Assembly: GCA_947476045.1 (NCBI GenBank)
Contig: CANJNZ010000056.1
Coordinates: 1-32,552, forward strand
Source of the DNA: Chthoniobacteraceae bacterium
GTDB lineage: Bacteria > Verrucomicrobiota > Verrucomicrobiia > Chthoniobacterales > Chthoniobacteraceae
Length of the DNA stretch: 32,552 bases
Reading direction: 5' to 3'
The notes under the pieces were generated by a model, which was given only the letters and a program-made list of their open reading frames with translations, was not told the DNA's origin and made no database searches. Below, one piece after another: positions 346-7,791 of this stretch (position 1 is the stretch's first letter; each line of letters begins with the position of its first letter). The position numbers and the translations under genes were made by a program.

Positions 346-2523
346 ATGCGAGCGATTGTTTTGCTTCTTGTCCTTGTCCTCTCCGCCAGTGCGGAGACGG
401 TGACTTTTCGCAATCACGTGCAGCCGATTTTGATGAAGACGGGCTGCTCGACCGGCGCGTGCCACGGGGCGGCGGCGGGGCAGGGGGGATTGCGGCTCTC
501 GCTGCGCGGCTACGATGACGAAGGCGATTTTCTCACGCTCACACGCGGCGCGTTTGGGCGGCGGGTGAACCCGAGCGAGCCTGCCAAGTCGCTCATCCTG
601 CTGAAGGCCACGAGCGCCGTGCCGCACAAGGGCGGCGAGCGTTTCAAAGTGAATTCGCCGGAGTGGCGCACGCTCGTGGATTGGATCGCCGAGGGTGCGC
701 CGGGGCCGCGTGCGGAGGATACGCGCATCGAGCGAATCGAAGTGCAGCCCGCGCAGGTGCGTCTCGCTCCGGGTGAAAAGAAGCAGTTCACCGTGCGCGC
801 GCATTTTTCCGACGGACACAGCGAGGACGTGACGCGCTGGGCGAAATACACGGCGGCGAATCAGACCGTGCTCAACGTGGACGACGCGGGCCTCGCCACG
901 GTGGTCGGCCACGGCGAGAGCGCGGTGACGGTCTGGTATTTGCAAAAGGTCGCGTTCGGCACGGCGAGCGTTCCGTTTGAAAATCAAATCGCCGAGAGCA
1001 TGTGGACGCAGGCGCCGCGCAGGAACTGGATTGACGATCAAGTGCTGGCGAAATTGCGCGAGCTGAACCTCCCGCCATCGCCGCGCAGCAAGGACGGCGA
1101 GTTCGTGCGCCGCGCATTTCTCGACACCATCGGTGTGCTGCCGACTGCAAATGAGGTGCGCGATTTCCTCGCGGATAAAAGCGCGGACAAGCGCGACCGG
1201 CTCATCGAGGCGCTGCTCGTGAGGCCGGAATTCGTGGATTACTGGACTTACAAATGGAGCGACTTGCTGCTCGTCACGAAGCGCAAACTGCCGCTGCCGA
1301 CGATGTGGTCCTACTACCGCTGGGTGCGCGATCAGGTTGCGTCGAACACGCACTGGGACGACTTCGCCACGAAGCTCCTCACCGCGCAGGGCAGCTCGCT
1401 CGACAACGGCGCGGCGAATTATTTCGTCATCACGCCCGACCCGCGCGACGTGTCGGAAAAAACCGCCGTCACTTTCCTCGGCATCTCCACCGTGTGCGCG
1501 AAGTGCCACAACCACCCGATGGAAAAATGGACGAACAACGACTACTTCGGCTATGCCAATTTATTCTCCCGCGTCCGCATCAAGAACGGAAAGAGCGAAG
1601 AGCGGATCGTCTTCGCCGCCGATGACGGCGACCTCGTGCAGCCCCTCACCGGCAAGCCCCAGCAGCCGCGTCCGCTCGGCGGACAGCCCCTCGCACTCGA
1701 TGCCGCAGGCGACCGCCGCGAGGCGCTGGTGAAATGGCTCACCGCTCCCAAGAATCCCTACTTCTCCCGCGCCATCACAAACCGTGTGTGGGCGAATTTT
1801 TTCGGCGTCGGACTCGTCGAAGCCGTGGACGACATCCGCGAGACCAACCCCGCAAGCAACGAGCAACTTTTCGCCGCCGCCGCGACATGGCTGCGCGAGC
1901 ACCGCTACGATCTCCGCGCGCTCATGCGCGAGATTTTGCAAAGCGAAACCTACCAGCGCACCAGCGCCCCGCTGCCGGGTAACAAGGACGAAACGCGCTT
2001 CTACTCGCACTACTATCCGCGCCGTCTCATGGCCGAGGTGCTCCACGACGCCATCGCGCAAGTCACCGAAGTGCCCACGCCTTTCACCACGCGCGACGTC
2101 ACCGTCGAGGGCGACAAACAAACGCCGTTCCCCCTCGGCTGGCGCGCACTCCAACTCCCCGACGCCAACACCAACAACTACTTCACCAAAACATTTGGCC
2201 GTCCCGCGCGCGAGCTGACTTGCGAATGCGAGCGCACCACCGAGTCGAACGTCGCCCAAGCCCTCCACATCGCCAACGGCGACACACTCAACGCCAAACT
2301 CCGCGCCAACGATGGCTTCATCACCAAAGTCCTCGCCGCCAAAAAACCCGCCGCCCAGTGGCTCGAAGACGCCACCCTCGCCACGCTCGCCCGCGTCCCG
2401 TCGCCCGCCGAAATCCAAGCCGTGCAAAACTCCCTCGCCGCCGCAAAAGACGAACCGCGCCTCGTCGTCGAGGACACCCTCTGGGCCCTCCTCAGCAGCC
2501 GCGAGTTTTTGTTCAACCACTGA
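346..2523 (+). CDS. Secreted cytochrome-like DUF1549/DUF1553 (PSCyt2/PSD1) protein with Ig-like domain
   Basis: A 725-residue exported protein of a family greatly expanded in Planctomycetes and Verrucomicrobia; its biochemical role is not settled. The ATG at 346 is chosen because it begins a clean signal peptide (MRAIVLLLVLVLSASA); the frame is open further upstream to 301 but those residues do not resemble an export signal. Visible parts in order: signal peptide 1-16; an N-terminal cytochrome-like segment with CSTGACH at 34-40, a C-x4-CH spacing instead of the classical C-x2-CH; a bacterial Ig-like (Big2-type) segment at about 128-205; DUF1549 at about 225-420 containing CAKCHNHP at 384-391, which has a proper C-x2-CH; DUF1553 at about 480-715. 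It stands alone, followed by a 533-base gap. A second member of the family lies at 11733-14411. Family assignment is firm; haem binding is inferred from the motifs. Confidence 0.9.
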   Translation: MRAIVLLLVLVLSASAETVTFRNHVQPILMKTGCSTGACHGAAAGQGGLRLSLRGYDDEGDFLTLTRGAFGRRVNPSEPAKSLILLKATSAVPHKGGERFKVNSPEWRTLVDWIAEGAPGPRAEDTRIERIEVQPAQVRLAPGEKKQFTVRAHFSDGHSEDVTRWAKYTAANQTVLNVDDAGLATVVGHGESAVTVWYLQKVAFGTASVPFENQIAESMWTQAPRRNWIDDQVLAKLRELNLPPSPRSKDGEFVRRAFLDTIGVLPTANEVRDFLADKSADKRDRLIEALLVRPEFVDYWTYKWSDLLLVTKRKLPLPTMWSYYRWVRDQVASNTHWDDFATKLLTAQGSSLDNGAANYFVITPDPRDVSEKTAVTFLGISTVCAKCHNHPMEKWTNNDYFGYANLFSRVRIKNGKSEERIVFAADDGDLVQPLTGKPQQPRPLGGQPLALDAAGDRREALVKWLTAPKNPYFSRAITNRVWANFFGVGLVEAVDDIRETNPASNEQLFAAAATWLREHRYDLRALMREILQSETYQRTSAPLPGNKDETRFYSHYYPRRLMAEVLHDAIAQVTEVPTPFTTRDVTVEGDKQTPFPLGWRALQLPDANTNNYFTKTFGRPARELTCECERTTESNVAQALHIANGDTLNAKLRANDGFITKVLAAKKPAAQWLEDATLATLARVPSPAEIQAVQNSLAAAKDEPRLVVEDTLWALLSSREFLFNH

Positions 2524-3056
2524 GCAGCCGAGTGATGTCGTATGACGTTTTGTTGATGGCGAATGATCAGCGAGGGAGTCTCCTCGTTGTAAACTCAATG
2601 ATCGGCCCGCGCGTCTTGTATCGAAATTCCGGATGCGCACTCACGCGCACTACAAGCGTCTCTCCGCGAGAGAAGTCATACGACTATTACAGTAGGACTG
2701 CCATATGGCGCGTAGCGCCAGCTACTACGGTAGCCGTGGGTGAAGCGACAGCGAAACCCACGGAAAGAAGGGAAGACGCAAAGCGCCGCGTAGCCGGCGC
2801 GACCGTTCACGTGACACCGTTTGTCGCACCGCATACGCGGTGCATGGCTTGCACCAGCTAGCCGTGGGCTGCGTCGCTTCGCTCCTTGCACACGGCTAGC
2901 GTTGTAGCTGGCGCTACGCGCCAATCATTTCCAGCAATGTATTTGTAGAAATCATATCATCGATTCGGAGTTGCGTATTCTGCACGTTGTTGCGGACGTT
3001 TTTTTGCGGAGACTATCACGCCAAAATGAGAGCGCCTGTCGCGTCTGTGGCGCGGA
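2524..3056. other. Gene-free interval between converging genes
   Basis: These 533 bases separate two genes pointing at each other. The only frame of any length (2220-2861 on the plus strand) overlaps the end of the preceding gene in another frame and is Arg/Pro-rich, so I reject it. The middle of the interval is occupied by the palindrome cluster described at 2706-2923. The flanks (2524-2700 and 2930-3056) show no recognised gene, RNA or obvious U-tailed terminator. Confidence 0.6.
2706..2923. repeat. REP/MITE-like cluster of palindromes bounded by a 20-bp inverted repeat
   Basis: The outer arms are exact reverse complements: tggcgcgtagcgccagctac at 2706-2725 and its complement at 2904-2923. 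Each arm is itself a hairpin, with a 6-bp stem and 3-base loop at 2706-2720 and 2909-2923. Inside lie further stems: 8 bp at 2734-2741/2756-2763, 6 bp at 2783-2788/2795-2800, 7 bp with a 4-base loop at 2827-2844, and 10 bp at 2858-2867/2891-2900. This architecture resembles clustered repetitive extragenic palindromes or a miniature non-autonomous element. No transposase is nearby, and I cannot see other copies because only this window is available. It could also act as a two-way transcription barrier between the converging genes. Confidence 0.7.
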
Positions 3057-6000
3057 TTACTTTGGCAACTCGACCTTGAGCACTCCGTAGTTGCCGAGAG
3101 GGAACCAGAATCCTTCAGCGGGAGTGCCATCGGCTGTAGCGGGATTTACCCAGAGCCATCCGGGCAGGTGATAGGTGCCGAGGTTTTTGATTTCGGCGGG
3201 ATTCGAGATATCCAGCGCAGTAAGGGCGCTTCCGTAGCCGTCATATTTCTGCGAGAGGATGACATCGCCAAATGCATGGCTGTTGTAACCGGCGTATTTC
3301 TCTTCATCGAGAAGCTTGAATTTTCCATCGTCTTCAAGCCGCCAGAGCGCGGCGAAACTTGCGTATTCGTCTTGGGTGTCGCTGAGTGACTTCCAGTCAA
3401 TGGCGAAGAACTTGTCTGCGATGGGGAATGCCTCGCCTCCGTTGTGGGGCAGCGTAGTAATGAGGTGGAGTTTTTGTCCGTCAAACGCGGAGGCGTGAAT
3501 CACCTGGCTTCCCCATAGTCCTTTTCCGCGCGAGTCGTAGTCATGTCCGCGTGTGTAGATGATTTTTCCATTGCTGCGCTGGCCGATCAATTCGCCAGGG
3601 GAACTCACGGGGTCGGATACTTTCACGCCTCCTTGCGAAGTGTAATCCAGCACATGCATCGCGTGGCGGTTTGCAAAAGCATCTTCTTCAACCGGCGGCA
3701 CAATGTCTTGTGTTTCGACGTTCTCCTCCAGGGTGATCAACTGCATGGGCCGATGATACGGGTAATACGGTCCTCCGTTCACAAAGCGCGTAATGAAGAC
3801 TTTGCCGTTTGTCGCTACAGGAGCGCTGAATTGCCCCCAGCCCTTTGCCTTGATTGTTTCTCGTCCGACGTAGGCCGGTGCTTTCGGATCTGTGACATCG
3901 AACTGGTCAAAATTTCTTTCCGTATTCGTCGGATAATACCACGGCATGAATGCTCTATCGGCGACCATCAAAGCGCTGACTGAACGAACGGGCGTGGCGA
4001 CATCGTTCATTGCATAAATCGGGTAACCCCAGCCTTCGTTGCCGCCGCCCACGAGGACCATTGTTCCGTCTTGTGGCCAGACGATGCTCGATGATCGATG
4101 TCTGTCGATGTTGATCCGGTCTGTCCGCAAAGTTCCTGTGTTGATTATGCGGGGCAGGGAGGTGAGGTCGAAAATACGGAGCGTTGCACTTGGTGGTGCG
4201 AGGGTATCGACATTCGGGGGAGTGATTTCCTGCTGAACGACGTAGAGGTATCCGTTGCGCACATCCGAGGCGACCAGTATGTCATTTCCAAGATCAAAAA
4301 TACTCAGCGAATCGTCCGGCGAATTGTCCTTGGAGACCGAGATTACAGAAGCAGCCTCGCCGATGCCTCCGCCGATTTGCACGAGATGACTGCCGATGTG
4401 CCACACGTGATCCGTGCGCCAGGCGAGTTGCAGATCATTGGTCACCACGGGTGCATCGCGGTCGGTGATGTCTGCCGTGAGCAACGAGTCCTGGGAAAAT
4501 GCGAGCACGGAGCCTTCGTGGACTGTCGCGCGGCGAGGAGCGAAGCCGTGCGGGATGCGGCCGCGCAGGGTGAGTGAATCTGCGCCGAGATCCACAAGTT
4601 GAATACCGCTCGGCTCAGCGGTGTTGCTCGAACCGCTCCACCAAGACGACCAGCCTGCGCTCACCGGCAGCATGATGAGACCTGCCTCCGGCAGCACAGA
4701 AAACGCCTTTTCGTCACACGTCGCCTCGCTCCACGCCCCGCGCTCGGTCACGGGCAATTGTGTGAGCAATTTTGGATTCTTTGCATCAGCCACATTGAAA
4801 AGCGAAACGGTCACACTGCCGTCGAGGAAGCCAACCGTCACGAGCCGGTTTCCCAGCGGTGCGAGGTAGGTGCTGAAGCCCGGCACTTCCAGTTCGCTCG
4901 CAATCGTCGGCGTATTTTTGTCGGAATTGTCCACGATCCACAGCGGGTCAATCCGGAAGAAAGTCACCACGTAGATGCGGTCGCCGTCAAAACGAGTGCC
5001 ATGCACCTGCTCGCCGAGACCGAGTTCGAGATGGCCGAGCGCTTGCGGGCTGTCGGGATGGCTCACGTCGAAATTATCCAGACGCGTTTTGCTGCGGCGT
5101 CCGTTGTTCCACCACCCTTGGTAAAATGAAATGGCGCTCAATATTCCGCCTTCCTCGCGAAGCTTGAACTTGTCCTGCACGAAACCCTCCAGCGCCACGC
5201 GCCCGCGCAGCGTCACTGTGCCGTCGGGATTGCTGATATCCACGAGCGTCACCGTCGAGCGAGTGTCGCCGATATCCCAGCGGTAGGAATTTTCCGCCAC
5301 CATGAAAAAGTGGCTGCTCGCCTGCACGGCGTCGAAATATGAGTAGCCGTCGCCCTCCGGTGTTTTGAGCGTCACTGTATTGCGAACGACCGGGTTTGAG
5401 GGAACGCTGAGGTCGAATCCGGTGATTTGGATTTTCGTGCGATAATACCATTGGCTGGTTGAAGTATCCGGCACCCTTGCTGCCACGTAGAGCGCTGTGC
5501 CGGCGAGCCGACTTTCCAATATCTGACCGGAAACGGGAAGGGTGGCGACCAGCGCAGGCGTGCCGGGTTTCGTATTGCAAATAATCACCGAACTCTCGGC
5601 CCCCGCAGGCTGATTCACATCCCAGCCGAGCATATACGGTCTATTTGCAAGCAGCGCGACATGGCCATCCGTCAGTTCGTAAAGAGCCTCACCCGAAGCA
5701 GGCAGCGACAGCGTTCCGAGCATCGCTGGCTTTGCCGGGTCCTTCACATCGAGCACCTGTAGGCCGCGATATTGGTTATAGAGATAAAGGCGGTCGCCGC
5801 TCAGCTTCCAAATATCGCTCTCGACGACCGAGCGCGGCGCGGCATCGCTGTCGGAAGCCTTCGTCCCATTCAACGCTGCACCGCTGTCGAGCGTCAGACC
5901 GCCACCCGAAGAAGTCGTAGTCGTTCCGAGCGTGATGTTTTGCGAAGACGCACCCTCCGGCGGTAGAAAATCGCTGATACCCGTAAGAAAATTCGGGGGC

Positions 6001-6296
6001 ACCTGCCCGGGCCTCGTGCCTAGAACACGCAGCATCCGCCGAGGTATCGGCTTCTTCATTCTGAAAAAGACGTGGTCCCCCGTAACCTTCGACTTGTTCA
6101 CAGCGAGAGTCTGCCAGGGTTCGCCGCGCCGTGCGGTCCTGTGTTGCAAAGTCACGCTTTCAAACCCCGCCGGCACCCTTACTCGGACGACGCGGTATTT
6201 AGCCGAGACGATTTCGGGTGCTGTGACCAAAGCAAGGGATGCCGCGTTTGAGAAAAGCAACCCTGCGAGAACTGTGAGGACGATTCGAAGATTCAT
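3057..6296 (-). CDS. Large secreted beta-propeller protein (Beta_propel/LVIVD-like)
   Basis: A 1079-residue exported protein of unknown function. The start is placed at the ATG at 6296 because it opens a signal peptide (MNLRIVLTVLAGLLFSNAAS); the ten residues upstream in the same frame look untranslated. Most of the chain consists of repeated short blades with phrases such as LQVLDVKDPAKP, VTLVDISNPDGT, FDVSHPDSP and LTALDISNPAEI. The middle resembles the secreted C-terminal beta-propeller family Beta_propel, for example GDRIYVVTFFRIDPLWIVD followed by ELEVPGFSTYL. There are no catalytic motifs and no membrane anchor. The protein reads as an extracytoplasmic binding or scaffold protein. It stands alone, convergent with the gene at 346-2523, and the 151-base upstream gap contains a perfect 14-bp palindrome. 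Fold assignment is fairly safe; ligand and role are unknown. Confidence 0.8.
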   Translation of the reverse strand: MNLRIVLTVLAGLLFSNAASLALVTAPEIVSAKYRVVRVRVPAGFESVTLQHRTARRGEPWQTLAVNKSKVTGDHVFFRMKKPIPRRMLRVLGTRPGQVPPNFLTGISDFLPPEGASSQNITLGTTTTSSGGGLTLDSGAALNGTKASDSDAAPRSVVESDIWKLSGDRLYLYNQYRGLQVLDVKDPAKPAMLGTLSLPASGEALYELTDGHVALLANRPYMLGWDVNQPAGAESSVIICNTKPGTPALVATLPVSGQILESRLAGTALYVAARVPDTSTSQWYYRTKIQITGFDLSVPSNPVVRNTVTLKTPEGDGYSYFDAVQASSHFFMVAENSYRWDIGDTRSTVTLVDISNPDGTVTLRGRVALEGFVQDKFKLREEGGILSAISFYQGWWNNGRRSKTRLDNFDVSHPDSPQALGHLELGLGEQVHGTRFDGDRIYVVTFFRIDPLWIVDNSDKNTPTIASELEVPGFSTYLAPLGNRLVTVGFLDGSVTVSLFNVADAKNPKLLTQLPVTERGAWSEATCDEKAFSVLPEAGLIMLPVSAGWSSWWSGSSNTAEPSGIQLVDLGADSLTLRGRIPHGFAPRRATVHEGSVLAFSQDSLLTADITDRDAPVVTNDLQLAWRTDHVWHIGSHLVQIGGGIGEAASVISVSKDNSPDDSLSIFDLGNDILVASDVRNGYLYVVQQEITPPNVDTLAPPSATLRIFDLTSLPRIINTGTLRTDRINIDRHRSSSIVWPQDGTMVLVGGGNEGWGYPIYAMNDVATPVRSVSALMVADRAFMPWYYPTNTERNFDQFDVTDPKAPAYVGRETIKAKGWGQFSAPVATNGKVFITRFVNGGPYYPYHRPMQLITLEENVETQDIVPPVEEDAFANRHAMHVLDYTSQGGVKVSDPVSSPGELIGQRSNGKIIYTRGHDYDSRGKGLWGSQVIHASAFDGQKLHLITTLPHNGGEAFPIADKFFAIDWKSLSDTQDEYASFAALWRLEDDGKFKLLDEEKYAGYNSHAFGDVILSQKYDGYGSALTALDISNPAEIKNLGTYHLPGWLWVNPATADGTPAEGFWFPLGNYGVLKVELPK

Positions 6297-6369
6297 GGTG
6301 TGGGATAGGGCTCGGAAACAATGCACGTGAAATACGCATTACGAAAGGGGATTATTAGCGAAAAATTAT

Positions 6370-6447: not shown

Positions 6448-7791
6448 TCAGGTATTTTTGGCCTGCGACTGCTCGAAGAGGGCGCGCCAGTAGTCGAGGC
6501 GTTCTTTGACGCGCTTTTCGTGGCCGTTTTCGCCGGGCTCATAGTAGCGGCGGCCTTCGGGGAGGTAGGCTTGCGGGATGTAGGCGCCTTCGCCGTCGTG
6601 GCTGTATTGGTAGCCGGTGTGGCCGAGGGTTTTTGCGCCTGCTTTGTGCCCGGTGCTGCGGAGGTGGCGTGGGACGGCGAGGGTGACGCCTTGTTTCACG
6701 TCGGAAAGCGCGGCGTTGATGGCGGCGTAGGCGCGGTTGGATTTCGGCGCGGTGGCCAGATAGACGGTGGCGTGTGCGAGCGGGATGCGGGCCTCGGGCA
6801 TCCCGATGGATTCGGCGGCTTGTTGCGCTGCGATGGCGAGCGGGAGGCCGTGCGGGTCGGCCATGCCGATGTCTTCGCTGGCGAGGATGACGATGCGGCG
6901 CGCGATGAAGCGGATGTCTTCGCCGGCGTAGAGCATTTTCGCGAGCCAGTAGAGGGCGGCGTCGGGATCGGAGCCGCGCACGCTTTTGATAAAGGCGGAG
7001 ATGGTGTCGTAGTGCTGGTCGCCCGTGGCGTCATAGACGACGGCTTTTTTCTGGATGCTCTCCTCGGCGGCGCCTTTGGTGAAATGGATCACGCCGTCTG
7101 CGCCGGGCGGTGTGGTGAGGATGCCGAGTTCGAGGGAGTTGAGAGCTTTGCGGGCGTCGCCGTCTGCGATGGTGGCGAGGTGCGAAAGTGCGTCGTCGTC
7201 GGCGAGCGTGCGATGGCTGCCGAGGCCGCGCTCAGTGTCGGCGAGTGCGCGGCGGAGGAGTATTTCGATATCCTCAGGGGCGAGCGGTTCGAGTTGAAAA
7301 ACCTGACTGCGCGAGACCAGCGGGCTGTTGACGTAGAAGAACGGATTTTCCGTCGTCGCACCGATGAGCCGCACGGTGCCACGCTCGACATCGGGGAGCA
7401 GGGCGTCCTGCTGGGCTTTGTTCCAGCGATGGATTTCGTCCACGAAGAGGATGGTCTTTTGTCCCGAAGTGCGAAGGCGGCTGGCTGCTGCGGCGACGAC
7501 TTTGCGTAGGTCGGCGATGTTGCTCTCGACGCCGCTGAGTTGCTCGAAACGGCACTTGGTGGCGTGCGCGATGATTTGCGCGAGTGAGGTCTTGCCGGTG
7601 CCGGGCGGGCCGAAAAGCAGGATGCTCGCGATGCGATCCGCCTCGATGGCGCGCCGGAGAAGTTTGCCGGGGCCGAGGATGTGTGCTTGCCCGGTGTATT
7701 CGTCGAGCGTGCGGGGGCGCATTCTTTCCGCGAGCGGGGCGGCGGCGCTGACTGCGGCGGGAGTTTCCGTGGCGAACAGATCGTCGGACAT
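6448..7791 (-). CDS. rarA: Replication-associated recombination protein A (RarA/MgsA AAA+ ATPase)
   Basis: A 447-residue clamp-loader-like AAA+ ATPase that acts at stalled replication forks and at ssDNA/SSB; E. coli RarA has about the same length. Visible features: a Walker A loop GPPGTGKT at 61-68, Walker B with ILFVDEIHRW at about 114-123, sensor 1 region RLIGATTENPFF near 141-152, and the family's characteristic C-terminal part with GLPLAIAAQQAAESIGMPEARIPLA and GYQYSHDGEGAYIPQAYLPEG. The N-terminus MSDDLF resembles the family's short SSB-like start. The gene begins 5 bases after the stop of the Rrf2-type regulator, so it is probably the last gene of a three-gene transcript. Nothing appears missing or broken. 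Confidence 0.96.
   Translation of the reverse strand: MSDDLFATETPAAVSAAAPLAERMRPRTLDEYTGQAHILGPGKLLRRAIEADRIASILLFGPPGTGKTSLAQIIAHATKCRFEQLSGVESNIADLRKVVAAAASRLRTSGQKTILFVDEIHRWNKAQQDALLPDVERGTVRLIGATTENPFFYVNSPLVSRSQVFQLEPLAPEDIEILLRRALADTERGLGSHRTLADDDALSHLATIADGDARKALNSLELGILTTPPGADGVIHFTKGAAEESIQKKAVVYDATGDQHYDTISAFIKSVRGSDPDAALYWLAKMLYAGEDIRFIARRIVILASEDIGMADPHGLPLAIAAQQAAESIGMPEARIPLAHATVYLATAPKSNRAYAAINAALSDVKQGVTLAVPRHLRSTGHKAGAKTLGHTGYQYSHDGEGAYIPQAYLPEGRRYYEPGENGHEKRVKERLDYWRALFEQSQAKNT

Follow-up and report, generated by a model that had tools for sequence, protein, structure and literature searches.

The locus considered here raises the question of what a dense cluster of palindromes is doing between two converging genes and how it came to be there. 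The window, that is, the whole 32,552-nt stretch analyzed (positions 1 to 32,552 of contig CANJNZ010000056.1), belongs to a Chthoniobacteraceae genome (G000) of 4,368,658 bases in 123 contigs, 96.8% complete. The neighboring genes, one with PSCyt2/PSD1 domains (301-2523, + strand) and the other with a Beta_propel domain (3057-6326, − strand), converge on the interval, as the initial annotation had stated; farther along, Pfam placed an MgsA/RarA-type AAA+ ATPase gene at 6448-7791 (− strand). The sequence also bears out two other statements of that annotation: that the outer 20-bp arms, at 2706-2725 and 2904-2923, form a perfect inverted repeat and that six stems lie within 218 bases, found here as six local hairpins from 2706-2720 to 2909-2923. 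The boundaries that it drew, 2706 to 2923, were too narrow, as the repeated unit is a gene-less element of 278 bp (2679-2956) with TCA on each side. We consider it likely that this unit is a composite non-autonomous mobile element, in which a TIR shell encloses a gene-less core derived from a Y1 transposase unit.

Read from the left, the element is preceded by one copy of the target duplication, the flanking triplet TCA at 2676-2678, and opens with the left shell TIR, TACGACTATTACAGTA (2679-2694, + strand), which has 3 mismatches to the family pattern. The 218-bp core that follows has its six hairpins in a symmetric layout, three per side. Its left half, on the + strand, begins with the outer hairpin TGGCGC-GTA-GCGCCA (2706-2720) and continues with a REP-like hairpin, CCGTGGGT...ACCCACGG (2730-2763; stem-loop 2734-2763), tagged by GTAG at 2730-2733, and an inner hairpin, GCGCCG-CGTAGC-CGGCGC (2783-2800). 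A center of 19 nt (2804-2822) lies between the inner hairpins. The right half, on the − strand, consists of the inner hairpin GCACCGC-ATAC-GCGGTGC (2826-2843), the inverted REP-like hairpin (2862-2899; stem-loop 2862-2895), and the outer hairpin TGGCGC-TAC-GCGCCA (2909-2923), with which the core ends. The GTAG-tagged palindromes are in inverted orientation; the right tag is a mutated CTAG in the window copy and CTAC, i.e., GTAG on the other strand, in most copies. The right shell TIR (2941-2956, − strand; 4 mismatches to the family pattern) and the second TCA (2957-2959) complete the unit.

At up to 3 mismatches, the arm had two matches in the window against 0.01 expected, none beyond the two arms themselves, and the inverted repeat reaches 33 nt at 94% complementarity. 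The interval 2690-2935 was predicted to fold at −143.9 kcal/mol as RNA (z = −9.7) and at −82.8 kcal/mol as DNA (z = −8.2), with 0 of 200 shuffles as good in either case. No Rfam family was found at gathering score within the window. Pairing of the outer hairpin was kept while its stem letters differed between species: in a set of nine 15-mers, hand-chosen and hand-registered, 94.4% of 54 cells were paired and the covariation score was 0.620, values that none of 500 shuffles attained, and two other measures were attained by 45 and 81 of the 500. Among close copies, compensatory changes were nearly absent, with changes on both sides in 2 of 71 pairs and an unfavorable covariation term.

The initial annotation had held that a single occurrence of the arm in the genome would speak against a mobile family. 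The interval has 12 copies in its own genome, the 11 others being 84 to 90% identical to the window copy; three of the 12 begin where their contig begins, one of these three being a fragment. Matches were obtained in 5 of the 97 genomes searched, all from the same genus: G000, the sister species G001 and G006, and, with weaker matches, G003 and G007. Each sister species has at least seven copies, a lower bound since the search scored seven candidates in each genome out of as many as 30, and an additional G001 copy lies at a contig end (L208). An exact 21-mer from the core, one whose sequence differs from that of the window copy, occurred in 11 stretches of genome_contigs, six of them from the Umea MAG and four from a Prosthecobacter debontii MAG. 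The eleventh, a single exact match in the actinobacterium Nocardioides agariphilus (L171, NZ_JADKPO010000027.1), is probably due to chance. The same 21-mer had 0 stretches in viral_contigs, and the full-length element had no match among phage and plasmid records in a distant blastn search. All 20 matches to the exact GTAG-repeat pattern in the own genome fall inside element copies, in a count confined to exact hits.

When the copies were aligned with their flanks, similarity extended beyond the arms to imperfect 16-bp TIRs (consensus TACGATTTCTACAGTC), with equal triplets outside. A rule-based scan recognized both TIRs in 19 of 27 loci. Flanking 3-mers were identical in 10 of these 19 elements, a number reached by 1 in 20,000 shuffled pairings, and unequal in 9. 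The triplets conformed to TNA on the left in 14 of 19 elements and on the right in 15 of 19, and 9 of the 10 equal pairs were TNA (TCA, TGA, TTA, TAA, and their complements), 8 of the 10 in either reading; the equal pair at L066 is CTA/TAG. The 3-bp duplication of the window copy, TCA, is of the form usual in the family. Being short and non-coding, with TIRs and a target duplication of fixed length, the element has the features of a MITE, and its 3-bp TNA duplication is that of MITEs derived from the IS1031 group of IS5, a group that inserts at TNA with a 3-bp repeat according to the accessible text of PMC12016507. The shell TIR is nevertheless unlike that of the IS1031-group example in the same text, and no IS with the shell TIR was found in the loci scanned.

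Evidence of movement came from joined-flank searches for 17 sites, six in nine genomes of the genus and eleven in four. Seven of the 17 sites had a contiguous counterpart in a relative; because the joined flanks match contiguously there, we take these counterparts to be empty. They were found in G006 for L003 and L011, in G001 and G006 for L005, in G001 for L065, in G006 and G000 for L066, and in G000 for L069 and L087. A single triplet was readable at the empty sites of L011 and L066 only. For L011, TGA is present once at the empty site and twice at the occupied one; for L066, the triplet at the occupied site is CTA, present twice, and each of the two empty sites has a single TTA. The junction is blurred for L003, L065, L069, and L087, and at L005, G001 and G006 lack the core with no evident 3-bp duplication. 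In three cases, two species share an occupied site (L010/L078, L011/L086 with a shortened core, and L071/L074). At the window's own site, the G001 match ends at 2529 and the G006 match starts at 3058, and neither sister has the flanks together.

The origin of the core is suggested by its likeness to the surroundings of Y1 genes. Pfam Y1_Tnp genes were present in all five genomes searched (2, 4, 6, 3, and 11 matches). In two of the congeners (G006:C27 and G007:C8), a 148-aa Y1 gene, at the place corresponding to the 19-nt center, has on either side the GTAG-tagged hairpin of the element (the repeat at 2730-2763), with the inner and outer palindromes beside it in the same order as in the element. 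The left half of the core, including its inner hairpin, aligns with the upstream flank of the Y1 gene (74/96 positions in G006; 70/99 in G007) and the right half with the downstream flank (78/103 in G006; 80/112 in G007). These alignments run end to end at 71 to 77% identity, each with a score above all 300 dinucleotide shuffles, and, at the right inner hairpin, the sequence TTTGTCGCACCGCATACGCGGTGCAT is identical at 26 of 26 positions to the 3′ flank of the G007:C8 gene. Because its halves align end to end with the flanks of Y1 genes, the core resembles a Y1 unit without the gene. Its near-terminal palindromes are like those of an IS200/IS605 unit, as in PATEs. The succession of outer palindrome, REP-like hairpin, and inner palindrome was seen by eye on both sides of 7 of 14 translated Y1 loci. 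No Y1 gene with the element's REP was found in the 123 contigs of the 96.8% complete own genome, where the best Y1 gene (C26) has different repeats and occupies the same location as its 97%-identical G001 counterpart.

Four of the 14 Y1 proteins were tested against NCBIfam models. All four passed the IS200/IS605 model (59 to 74 bits; cutoff, 55); with the REP_Tyr_transpos model, three scored 20.6 to 29.4 bits (cutoff, 80) and one was unlisted, and none of the four was assigned to the REP-associated family. Among solved structures, those nearest to the G006 Y1 protein (8 sequences at E ≤ 0.01) were transposases, such as 2a6m, the ISHp608 enzyme, and 2xm3. The tyrosine motif Y-x-x-x-Q was present in 12 of the 14 Y1 translations, the remaining two being out of frame; in the accessible text of PMC6006769, Q131 of Helicobacter pylori TnpA is contrasted with N119 of Escherichia coli TnpA_REP. 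Since the IS200/IS605 model was passed, the REP-associated model remained below its cutoff, and the motif is Y-x-x-x-Q, the Y1 protein is IS200-like, in an arrangement that is REPtron-like. The initial annotation had proposed that a transposase such as a RAYT is supplied from elsewhere. A supply from elsewhere is a fair idea, because the internal GTAG hairpins flank a Y1 gene in two congeners, but the protein matches the IS200 model in place of the RAYT type.

Shell and core also occur apart. Among 26 cores of G000, G001, and G006, a TIR (up to 5 mismatches of 16; background, 34 of 1,000 random window stretches) was present at both ends in 10, at the sole readable end in 4, at one of two ends in 3, and at no readable end in 9. 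These nine TIR-less cores may reflect decay or insertion of the core alone. All four of the G003 cores examined had TIR matches at background level only. TIR pairs with TNA flanks surround other hairpin-rich interiors, in elements of 76 to 385 bp, in G008, G005, G002, and G007; several of these elements fold almost wholly into one hairpin, and their interiors match none of the Y1 loci compared, a comparison that leaves out those of G002, G005, and G008. A composite structure is supported by the presence in the genus of cores lacking a shell as well as shells lacking this core. Such foldback elements, with the same type of TIR and unrelated interiors, are spread genus-wide (L240, L243, L244, L247, and L209 in G008; L248 and L249 in G005; L251 in G002; L252 in G007). 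Short forms holding one palindrome measure 75 bp (L218, G001) and 76 bp (L247, G008); the former (L218:1501-1575, G001:C171) retains both TIRs and linkers and, between them, nothing of the core other than one GGCGCGTAGCGCC-type palindrome. Both L037:868-883 (G000:C9) and L253:1217-1232 (G006:C208) have TAA followed by a left TIR with its linker, which break off immediately before the core; this truncated left end, common to both species, is old.

The shell implies a second transposase, probably of the DDE type. No gene with the shell TIR was present in the scanned loci of PF01609 (5 genomes) or PF13358 (10 genomes, with matches in 6), and the shell TIR at up to 4 mismatches had three chance-like single matches beside Y1 and DDE loci, 22 loci in all. 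For an IS5-like mover, the sole PF01609 match in G000 (C110) has other ends by eye. For an IS630-type mover, no shell TIR lay beside 10 PF13358 loci, a weak negative because the TIR-pair scan also overlooked the IS known from L297, for which the contig end removes the left flank. The resident high-copy IS of G000 was rejected as the source of the shell's TIR, as its end (TACCACATTCC...) and that of the shell (TACGATTT...) agree only in TNA and the first TAC. TNA precedes the sampled end of this IS (e.g., L292:1-149 and L291:1879-2027) at all 22 distinct junctions. In G033, a related IS encodes HTH_29 and DDE_3 domains and is of the IS630 type; IS630-type elements are known for TA duplications.

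Most likely, a DDE-type transposase supplied in trans would act on the shell TIRs and move the element, by cut-and-paste or by copying, into TNA sites with a 3-bp duplication. The core would represent two inverted halves matching the flanks of a Y1 (HUH) unit, with 19 nt in place of the gene. We infer that the DDE enzyme moved the shell-bearing copies; the core may have arisen through loss of the Y1 gene and been moved, once or still, by Y1 on single-stranded DNA, and the 75- to 76-bp one-palindrome forms may be deletions between outer palindromes. The TIR-less copies and L005 hint that a Y1 enzyme may still move the core. More tentatively, the element might be a two-tier replicator, a gene-less palindromic unit of the IS200/Y1 (HUH) type carried as cargo of a DDE miniature transposon and copyable by two unrelated transposases; genus-wide, shells of one type enclose differing interiors rich in hairpins, as if long hairpins were favored as cargo.

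It seems rather unlikely that the element is a plain DDE-type foldback MITE whose interior is passive hairpin DNA, its likeness to Y1 flanks being a relic with no role in movement. The TIRs and triplet duplication fit such an account, as do the congeneric shell elements, which fold into long hairpins with interiors unlike the Y1 loci compared (G002, G005, and G008 left out). However, the G003 cores without a shell (4 of 4 examined) and the shell-less copies elsewhere run counter to it, since they suggest that the core is able to spread alone. The same shell-less cores (those of G003 and the nine TIR-less ones among 26 copies), the GTAG-tagged inverted hairpins beside Y1 genes in G006 and G007, and the absence of the L005 core from both sister species, with no evident 3-bp duplication, would suit a REP/BIME/REPIN family moved only by a RAYT-type Y1 enzyme in trans, with the outer repeats as incidental co-copied flanks. 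We regard that reading as improbable, considering the TIRs at both ends of 10 of 26 copies, the significant match between flanking triplets, the recurrence of the TIRs around other interiors in other species, the confinement of all 20 exact GTAG-repeat matches of the own genome to the element, and the lack of a cognate Y1 gene among those found in that genome. Of the initial comparison with a REP/BIME cluster or a miniature element, the dispersed mobile palindrome family stands, but the TIRs, the 3-bp duplication, the confinement of exact GTAG repeats to the element, the IS200-model matches of the four Y1 proteins tested, and the different repeats at the best Y1 locus of the own genome are at odds with a plain REP/BIME. 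A bidirectional terminator or RNA-stabilizing structure of the two converging genes would suit the strong fold and the position between them but is very improbable in the face of 12 dispersed copies, empty sites, and a terminator scan of 2500-3080 that gave two sites, both outside the element. A secondary effect of the element on transcripts is possible.

The composite element that we favor shares traits with several described systems, each known to us here from the accessible text of the papers cited. Like the PATEs of Haloquadratum (PMC3119063), it is gene-less and has near-terminal palindromes in common with IS200/IS605-type units, and its one-palindrome short forms (L218 and L247) resemble terminal-only PATEs, which that text attributes to deletion between near-terminal palindromes. 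PATEs are described there as having neither TIRs nor target duplication, whereas the element has a TIR shell, a 3-bp duplication, and three hairpins per side of the core; the G003 cores, taken alone, lack a TIR, as PATEs do. Target duplication is likewise not described for transposition of the IS200/RAYT type in the accessible text of PMC2817692 and PMC3119063. With REPINs and REPtrons and their RAYT (TnpA_REP), the element shares paired, inverted GTAG palindromes of a kind also present on the two sides of a Y1 gene (PMC3116915, PMC2817692, PMC6006769, PMC3733652), but it is low in copy number, its exact matches all lie within one larger element with TIRs and target duplication outside, and the Y1 protein is of the IS200 type rather than the RAYT type. 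TIRtrons also combine Y1 genes with flanking inverted repeats that are found dispersed (PMC3733652); in contrast, the shell TIR was not seen around the Y1 loci scanned here. The ingredients, a PATE-like core, a REPtron arrangement, and a MITE-like shell, are all known. A limited literature search, itself no proof of absence, found no description of a Y1-derived core within a TIR shell in the accessible texts.

The element offers a concrete possible route for the origin and spread of REP-like palindrome clusters, in which the flanks of a single-strand (HUH) transposase unit, free of their gene, would be enclosed by a shell whose insertion duplicates its target in the ordinary way. As one genus contains the core alone, the shell alone, and the two combined, and close relatives have empty sites, these bacteria provide a natural series in which to look for the enzyme that moves palindromes lacking a gene.
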